Shown: positions 3,061 through 30,745 of the stretch, one piece after another | Position numbering within the stretch: the first letter of the stretch is position 1 | Layout: each line of letters opens with the position of its first letter | Assembly: GCA_015488995.1 (NCBI GenBank) | Contig: WFMQ01000114.1 | Span: 1-32,781, forward strand | Reading direction: 5' to 3' | From: Nitratifractor sp. | GTDB lineage: Bacteria; Campylobacterota; Campylobacteria; Campylobacterales; Sulfurovaceae | DNA length: 32,781 nt | The notes under the pieces: model-generated | Told to the model about the DNA's origin: nothing | The model's input: only the letters and a program-made list of their open reading frames with translations | Databases searched by the model: none | Position numbers and translations under genes: made by a program

Positions 3061-3084
3061 GGACGGGACTGAAGTCCCTGCTCC
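3061..3084 (-). repeat. REP-like palindrome, reverse orientation (GGAGCAGGGACTTCAGTCCCGTCC)
   Basis: GGAG head plus GGGACT..AGTCCC palindrome; forms an inverted pair with 3165-3186. Confidence 0.75.
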
Positions 3085-3164: not shown

Positions 3165-3186
3165 GGAGGCGGGACTTCAGTCCCGC
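3165..3186 (+). repeat. REP-like palindrome (GGAG-GCGGGACTTCAGTCCCGC)
   Basis: GGAG head plus 7-bp stem; related to 9739-9760 with compensatory stem changes. Confidence 0.8.
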
Positions 3187-8904: not shown

Positions 8905-9707
8905 TGACACCTGAAGAGAAAAAACGACGCGCGTTTATGAAGCACGCCACTGGATTGGGGGTGATCGGAGCCGCTGCCGCTGCTGGGATCTACGCCGCCC
9001 CGATGCTCAAAGCCGACGAGGCAGTTGTCCTGCGCCCACCGGGTGCTGTGCCTGAGGATACTTTTCTCAACCTCTGCATCAAGTGCGGTCAGTGTCTCCA
9101 AGTCTGCCCCTACGACAGCATCGAGCTGGAGCCTGTGACCAACGGTGCGGGGTACGGAATGGCCTTTATCGATCCGACGCAGCGGGGGTGCTATCTGTGC
9201 GATGCGTTCCCCTGCATCCTCGCCTGCCCGACCGGAGCACTCAATCATGAGCACGATCAGATTGAAGATGTGCACATGGGGATGGCGGTCATCGTCAAGG
9301 AGAGTGCTTGCCTCGCCCTGACCCACACACCTGTACCTGAGAGCGCCATCGATCGGATCTACGATCACACCCATGTGCTCAGTGCCGGAGAGCATACGGC
9401 TCACAAAGTCGCCCATCGCGGCAATGAGAGTGAAAAAGAGGAACTACAGAAAAAGCTTCTCGAAAAGCTCGATGCATTTCGAGGAGGTGACAAACCGTGC
9501 ACAATCTGTGCCGATCTCTGCCCCTTCCACCCCGATCCCTCCACGGCGATCGGTATGGTCGCCAAAGGGGGTGGCTTCCTCCCCGAGATCCGCGAAGCGT
9601 GCATCGGATGTGGGGCATGCGTAGAGCTCTGCCCCACCGATGTACTCGAGATCATCCCCCGGGCGACATACGATGATATTTACAAAAAAGGAAAGAACCA
9701 TGCGTAG
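8904..9707 (+). CDS. nosG: NosG (NapG-like) ferredoxin-type protein
   Basis: MTPEEKKRRAFMKHATGLGVIGAAAAAGIYAAP leader plus CIKCGQCLQVCP, CYLCDAFPCILACP, CTICADLCP and CIGCGACVELCP motifs. Confidence 0.93.
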   Translation: MTPEEKKRRAFMKHATGLGVIGAAAAAGIYAAPMLKADEAVVLRPPGAVPEDTFLNLCIKCGQCLQVCPYDSIELEPVTNGAGYGMAFIDPTQRGCYLCDAFPCILACPTGALNHEHDQIEDVHMGMAVIVKESACLALTHTPVPESAIDRIYDHTHVLSAGEHTAHKVAHRGNESEKEELQKKLLEKLDAFRGGDKPCTICADLCPFHPDPSTAIGMVAKGGGFLPEIREACIGCGACVELCPTDVLEIIPRATYDDIYKKGKNHA

Positions 9708-10374
9708 TGTATTAAATCGGCGAACGTCTATCCCACATGGAGGCAGGGCTTCAGCCCTGCACTGCGGGACGGAAGTCCCACCTCCTGATCGAAGAATACA
9801 TGGTGGATTTACGACCGTACTTCTCCCCCTCGCAGGTGCCCTGATCCTGAGTGGATGCAGCGGTAGTGACGCTACCCAACAGACCAAAACCGCTGCCACA
9901 CGTGCGGCACCGGCAGCGATCACAGTGACCGCCGGTGCGGTCAATACCACCGTCAAAAAAGAGAAATCCAAAGAGAACAGCGGCCAGTTCTACTACGCCT
10001 ACAACAAAGAAAAAAATACCACCGATACCGATGAAGCGACCCAACCCCGTACGACGATCGATGCGTATCTGCACATCAAATCCCCCTACGAGCGCGTCCG
10101 GGTCACCATGATGATCAAGCGCCTGAGCAAAGACTACATCATCAAATGTTCTCCGTGTCACGATGACTACGCCAACGGGGTGATCGGTCCATCGTTGCTG
10201 GACAAGAATGCGACGTTTATCTATCAGAGGATCGAAGCGTTCAAGAGCGGCAAGCGAAAAAATCCGTTGATGAAAGAGTTGGTGGAACAGATCGATGATG
10301 CCCATCTCAAAACACTGGCTGAAGAGATCGCAAATTTCAACAAAGAAATCCGTAAAATGAGGAGTGGAAAATGA
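9700..10374 (+). CDS. nosC1: NosC1-like monohaem cytochrome c lipoprotein with a REP-pair-encoded insertion in its N-terminal region
   Basis: Start ATG 9700 after AAGGAAAG; lipobox LILSGC; haem motif CSPCH; order nosG-C1-C2-H. Confidence 0.88.
   Translation: MRSVLNRRTSIPHGGRASALHCGTEVPPPDRRIHGGFTTVLLPLAGALILSGCSGSDATQQTKTAATRAAPAAITVTAGAVNTTVKKEKSKENSGQFYYAYNKEKNTTDTDEATQPRTTIDAYLHIKSPYERVRVTMMIKRLSKDYIIKCSPCHDDYANGVIGPSLLDKNATFIYQRIEAFKSGKRKNPLMKELVEQIDDAHLKTLAEEIANFNKEIRKMRSGK
9739..9760 (+). repeat. REP-like palindrome (GGAG-GCAGGGCTTCAGCCCTGC)
   Basis: GGAG head plus 7-bp stem; two compensatory changes relative to 3169-3186. Confidence 0.8.
9764..9785 (-). repeat. REP-like palindrome, reverse orientation (GGAGGTGGGACTTCCGTCCCGC)
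   Basis: CTCC at 9782-9785; inverted relative to 9739-9760. Confidence 0.75.
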
Positions 10375-30618: not shown

Positions 30619-30691
30619 ATATCTTTCTCACATCTCCCTCACATCTTTTCAACCCCACTTACCACTTTTTCTTGAGCTCAGTTTTGGCATA

Positions 30692-30745
30692 TTACCCCAC
30701 TCACTAAACATCCAAACATTTGTGTGTTTAGTGAGTGGGGTAATG
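30692..30745. repeat. Perfect 20-bp inverted repeat with 14-nt loop between convergent groEL and mrp
   Basis: ATTACCCCACTCACTAAACA (30692-30711) and TGTTTAGTGAGTGGGGTAAT (30726-30745). Confidence 0.85.

Follow-up and report, generated by a model that had tools for sequence, protein, structure and literature searches.

The window, 32,781 nucleotides of contig WFMQ01000114.1 from a Nitratifractor sp. genome, contains a clade II (Sec-type) nos operon whose NosZ matches TIGR04246 with 855 bits. The operon comprises nosZ, nosD, a napG/nosG-like gene, nosC1, a nosC2-like gene, a napH/nosH-like gene and an ABC ATPase gene, and includes ferredoxin genes. The nosC1 gene (9700-10374, + strand) codes for a monohaem c-type cytochrome (CSPCH motif) of 224 amino acids, predicted to be a lipoprotein. 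Its ATG codon at 9700 overlaps the stop codon of the upstream ferredoxin gene (ATGCGTAG) and is served by a GGAAAG Shine-Dalgarno (SD) sequence. The h-region and lipobox (VLLPLAGALILSGC) were located at 9817-9858 (+ strand) from the sequence and from an alignment with REP-free orthologues, the lipobox cysteine codon being at 9856-9858.

Between the start codon and the lipobox, nosC1 carries a perfect head-to-head REP pair of 47 bp (9739-9785), in frame. REP1 (GGAGGCAGGGCTTCAGCCCTGC, 9739-9760, + strand) consists of a GGAG tag and a GCAGGGCT/AGCCCTGC hairpin, and encodes GGRASAL. It is followed by a 5-nucleotide spacer (9761-9765), identical in length in the other pattern-matching doublets of the genus, and by REP2 (GGAGGTGGGACTTCCGTCCC, 9766-9785, - strand), which is inverted and encodes GTEVPP on the + strand. 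In a shuffled window, no match to REP1 or REP2 is expected. The frame opened at ATG 9700 runs without a stop through the pair to the lipobox LSGC. An inverted, stop-free REP pair at this place in the signal-peptide region had been described in an earlier note on the window, and its coordinates and translation proved right. The segment that the note had delimited around it, 9733-9807, was however too short. To define the element, a profile was built from 75 non-redundant doublets, nosC1 being left out. The flanks of these doublets are conserved beyond the REP pair, and the profile matched nosC1 from 9705 to 9822 (E = 1.1e-26). Scored alone against 100,000 random 30-mers, the nosC1 arms gave p = 0.0008 on the 5′ side (ungapped score) and p = 0.00008 on the 3′ side. 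The 5′ outer arm (9705-9738, + strand) is in frame and encodes about SVLNRRTSIPH. The 3′ outer arm (9786-9822, + strand) encodes DRRIHGGFTT..., with an uncertain end at about 9812-9822. Owing to its conserved outer arms, the full nosC1 element is about 105-118 bp long (~9705-9822).

This extent agrees with the comparison of the proteins. The distance from the initial methionine to the lipobox cysteine is 53 codons in the window gene as compared to 19 in a REP-free allele. Therefore, the window nosC1 has 34 extra residues (102 nucleotides), instead of the approximately 25 first proposed. The segment encoded by the insert includes TSIPHGGR and ASALHCGTEVPPPDR, and the resident frame encodes mostly small polar residues (GGRASALHCGTEVPPP). 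The extra cysteine reported earlier is indeed encoded by the REP pair, but it sits within the signal peptide and would presumably be removed by normal SPase II processing. Any relevance of this residue to mature NosC1 was rejected since it comes before the lipobox. Since it falls within the arms of the element, an 8-nucleotide direct repeat (CATGGAGG/CATGGTGG, 63 nucleotides apart around the core) was rejected as a candidate target duplication.

The REP family is abundant in the genus. The genome to which the window belongs (a MAG of 1.43 Mb) has 20 REP1-like and 46 REP2-like sites with up to 3 mismatches, against 0 with the reversed pattern as control. Searching four genomes of the genus with a consensus pattern gave 146, 325, 451 and 220 REPs, reversed-pattern controls giving 0-4. 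These REPs combine a GG(A/G)G tag with a hairpin of 14-16 nucleotides, and the 47-bp doublet with its 5-nucleotide spacer is found at 8, 12, 22 and 13 places in genomes G000 to G003, respectively. The own genome also encodes a 175-residue protein (locus L116, ORF 1318-1845) that scores above the Y1_Tnp cut-off, and its gene is bracketed by inverted REPs at 1193-1300 and 1854-1923. Because its score with the NCBIfam model REP_Tyr_transpos (78.6 bits) is just below the cut-off of 80, we call this gene RAYT-like. It is a candidate RAYT for the nosC1-type doublet. A survey of 367 clusters, with 552 REPs and the stretches around them covered, showed that only about 20 of the clusters lie inside a called gene, several of them being chance or terminal overlaps. 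Overall, the family shows the features of REPs and REPINs: a tagged palindrome in high copy number, stereotyped inverted doublets, a REP-flanked RAYT-like gene and a mostly extragenic location. The 47-bp doublet was also observed in other genera (L172-L191), where its flanks are wholly different (ATTGGTCATT... and GCGTTGC...GCAACGC). From these sequences, the outer arms of the element look genus-specific.

Other repeats are visible in the window. A second inverted pair of the same REP family, with a wider spacing, is found at 3065-3084 and 3165-3184. A perfect 35-nucleotide inverted repeat (2447-2481 and 2686-2720, 204 nucleotides between the arms) possibly marks the two termini of a small mobile element. 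A near-perfect 26-bp hairpin with a 2-nucleotide loop at 30691-30744 is probably a terminator.

We then considered the distribution of the nosC1 insert. It is found in four of four species of the genus, at the same codon, in frame and free of indels. The nosC1 orthologues of other genera (27 and 38 loci in two overlapping samples) have ordinary short lipoprotein signal peptides. The alignment of orthologues suggested in the earlier note thus yielded an insert-free gene in every sampled orthologue outside the genus and in one allele within it, and not a segment common to all. The latter allele (L055, MRNYRQILPLIGVVLFVGC) comes from G001, a MAG of Nitratifractor sp. S017_3, where an insert-bearing allele is also present. 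The two ends of the nos operon in this assembly, on contigs G001:C158 (L055, without the insert) and G001:C160 (L052, with it), reflect either two operons or mixed strains. In a tree of the ferredoxin and the mature part of NosC1, the empty allele branches beside the window gene with a support of 0.92, nested in the insert-bearing clade. The simplest reading of these sequences would be a genus-level insert, gained once before the sampled species diverged and then lost once. Horizontal replacement is a possible alternative source of the empty allele. Lost at least once on the simplest reading, the insert would be dispensable. Its palindrome is degrading in G003 and has been altered in G002. In the latter genome (L053), the second REP is now the reverse complement of the first, with outer arms of 15 bp. 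The variants of this second REP are common to another REP of the same genome (G002:C63:1030-1076), which favours conversion between copies.

Whether the insert is translated depends on the position of the start codon. In the window species, no ATG, GTG or TTG codon occurs between 9700 and the lipobox, so the downstream start that the earlier note had envisaged as a counter-argument is not seen there, and readthrough of the palindrome is required. Use of a rare codon, ACG, ATA or CTG, may nevertheless be considered in this species. In G001, G002 and G003, an in-frame ATG is found right before the h-region, after the palindrome (MRM/MGM/MSM), making their start site ambiguous. These congeners suggest another explanation, in which the palindrome is a 5′ leader, the true start lies after it and the open frame is incidental. 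Such a leader would also fit the slow evolution of the REP core at synonymous sites (pS of 0.17, as compared to 0.50 for the mature part). A downstream start of this kind is the reason why REPs at N-termini are often extragenic, as Di Nocera et al. (2013) caution (PMC3733652). Against it, both congener methionine codons are replaced by threonine and valine codons in the window species, and all four species, like the empty allele, retain an SD sequence and an ATG at the position of 9700. Moreover, frame 1 is the one frame free of stops in every species; frame 2 is interrupted in two of them and frame 3 in all four. We therefore regard a 5′ leader as unlikely. Readthrough of the insert is very likely in the window species, judging from the sequence, and the congeners may start after the palindrome.

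In-frame REPs are seen elsewhere in the genus. Among the 367 clusters, REPs were found in frame and strictly inside the conserved enzyme genes murD, cobQ, carB and hsdR, and readthrough is unavoidable at these places. The cobQ REP occupies an identical site in all four species (L019/L323/L352/L355/L356); cobQ matched none of the solved structures searched. The murD REP, just before the ATP-binding domain, is present in G000, G001 and G002 (L295/L360/L361). A further murD locus (L350, G001:C56:1-654) has about 45 residues tandemly repeated at the start of the contig, possibly an assembly artefact. In carB, the REP of G000 (L047) is an insertion relative to E. coli CarB, and the G001 and G002 genes are shorter at the site. 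The hsdR REP of G000 (L025) is an insertion relative to EcoR124I HsdR (2w00). An in-frame REP in a conserved gene that has REP-free orthologues is thus documented for nosC1, carB and hsdR. Apparent in-gene REPs at L029, L122, L180, L217, L264, L296 and L298 were discarded as chance matches or terminal overlaps. Finally, a multihaem cytochrome c gene (L071 in G001, 275-1654; L222 in G002) has a REP pair in its signal-peptide region, matched by the doublet profile over 121 nucleotides. The pair has opposite orientations in G001 and G002, and is in frame in both. At all six loci (nosC1, murD, cobQ, carB, hsdR and the multihaem cytochrome), the frame used is frame 1, giving GTSVP or GTEVPxP. By our own estimate on this small sample, assuming two open frames per orientation, such agreement would occur by chance about once in 64.

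Does the encoded peptide matter? The dN/dS ratio is 0.45 for the nosC1 insert and 0.12 for the mature part. No third-position excess is found among the substitutions of the insert (13, 7 and 14 at the three codon positions), and a codon-position bias was dropped as proof of translation because it is not significant. In the REP core, 5 of 16 third positions are changed, versus 56 of 96 in the mature part (p = 0.06); this low synonymous change could reflect conversion among REP copies or a structural constraint. The substitutions suggest a weak coding character only, with selection on the peptide probably weak at best. The strong purifying selection on the mature part, like the occurrence of the insert at an identical codon in four genomes, makes an assembly artefact or a pseudogene highly improbable, even though every named genome with the REPs is a MAG. 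The insert might instead have gained a function, for instance in the mRNA, where its hairpin would pace the translation of nosC1, or in the protein, where a longer n-region would delay export or target it. Its retention in four species, the existence of a second cytochrome with a matching architecture and the predicted folding of the 9700-9825 RNA as one long hairpin (-41.4 kcal/mol, z -2.0) would be in line with such a role. But the insert-free lineage nested in the REP-bearing clade, the degraded or altered palindromes of G003 and G002 and the weak constraint on the peptide argue against it, and we consider a gained function quite improbable. A broader proposal is that the REPIN has repeatedly supplied coding sequence in the genus: frame 1, open in either orientation, would provide a flexible Gly/Thr/Ser/Val/Pro linker that survives in interdomain linkers and n-regions, some copies, such as that of NosC1, having taken on a function in export or in the pacing of translation. 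As a whole, this proposal appears unlikely to us.

Most probably, a RAYT-type REP doublet was inserted in the 5′ end of nosC1 and is translated from ATG 9700, harmless, and removed with the signal peptide. Of this, the sequences show the insertion, its REP family, its phylogenetic distribution and, in the window species, an open frame with no other standard start. A REPIN-like mobile palindrome with conserved outer arms, presumably mobilised by a RAYT, would have entered the gene before the sampled species diverged. The net gain of 102 nucleotides preserved the reading frame, the resident frame being the open one, and the n-region of the signal peptide would have grown from some 6 residues to some 40, with the original SD sequence and start codon, h-region and lipobox left in place. 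Translation from ATG 9700 would give the preprotein, whose extra segment would be discarded in the course of Sec export and SPase II processing, leaving mature NosC1 unaltered. In a loosely constrained n-region, the insert would have been kept as a near-neutral passenger and lost in one lineage. The idea of the earlier note that a mobile palindrome has become coding sequence is thus retained, but 'domesticated' is too strong a word: given the weak constraint and the nested insert-free lineage, 'tolerated passenger' fits better.

The nosC1 gene offers a case where the conversion of a RAYT-type REP into protein sequence can be followed with its site, frame, empty allele, age and parallel cases all visible. 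The n-region of a signal peptide apparently has room for 34 palindrome-encoded residues, which provides a natural system for studying the n-region length that Sec tolerates and the way mobile palindromes generate protein linkers. In-frame REPs are also a warning for those who call genes or build proteomics databases for this group.

Known but uncommon examples of palindromic elements lying in frame within proteins come from Rickettsia and from REPs (PMC3733652), and nosC1 adds an unusually well-resolved case. In the open-licence literature, we found no published report of a REP in a signal peptide. The comparison with Rickettsia palindromic elements made in the earlier note is apt: in both cases, a mobile palindrome is tolerated in frame, in Rickettsia in many unrelated conserved proteins. 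These elements are however a separate sequence family, compared here by architecture alone, from PMC3733652. Those of R. conorii are CGTC-tagged, and CGTC repeats have no transposase association (PMC3733652), whereas REPs of the nosC1 family flank a RAYT-like gene. With REPINs/BIMEs and their RAYTs, the nosC1 family shares high-copy inverted doublets of fixed spacing and a REP-flanked Y1 transposase gene (PMC3116915, PMC2817692). REPINs are mostly extragenic (PMC3116915, PMC2817692), whereas the nosC1 copy lies in the coding region of a signal peptide and has weakly conserved outer arms. The closest parallel is given by the REP monomers and dimers that Di Nocera et al. (2013) described in frame within annotated ORFs of several species, often adding 20-30 amino acids and belonging to families linked to RAYTs (PMC3733652). 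As in nosC1, an in-frame REP of a RAYT-linked family lies within an ORF. Their families are GTAG- or CGTC-tagged and mostly from other taxa, Sulfurovum NBC37-1 being given as having both types (PMC3733652), whereas the tag of the nosC1 family is GG(A/G)G. In contrast to these cases, the nosC1 insert is resolved as to its site, its frame, its empty allele and its phylogenetic age.
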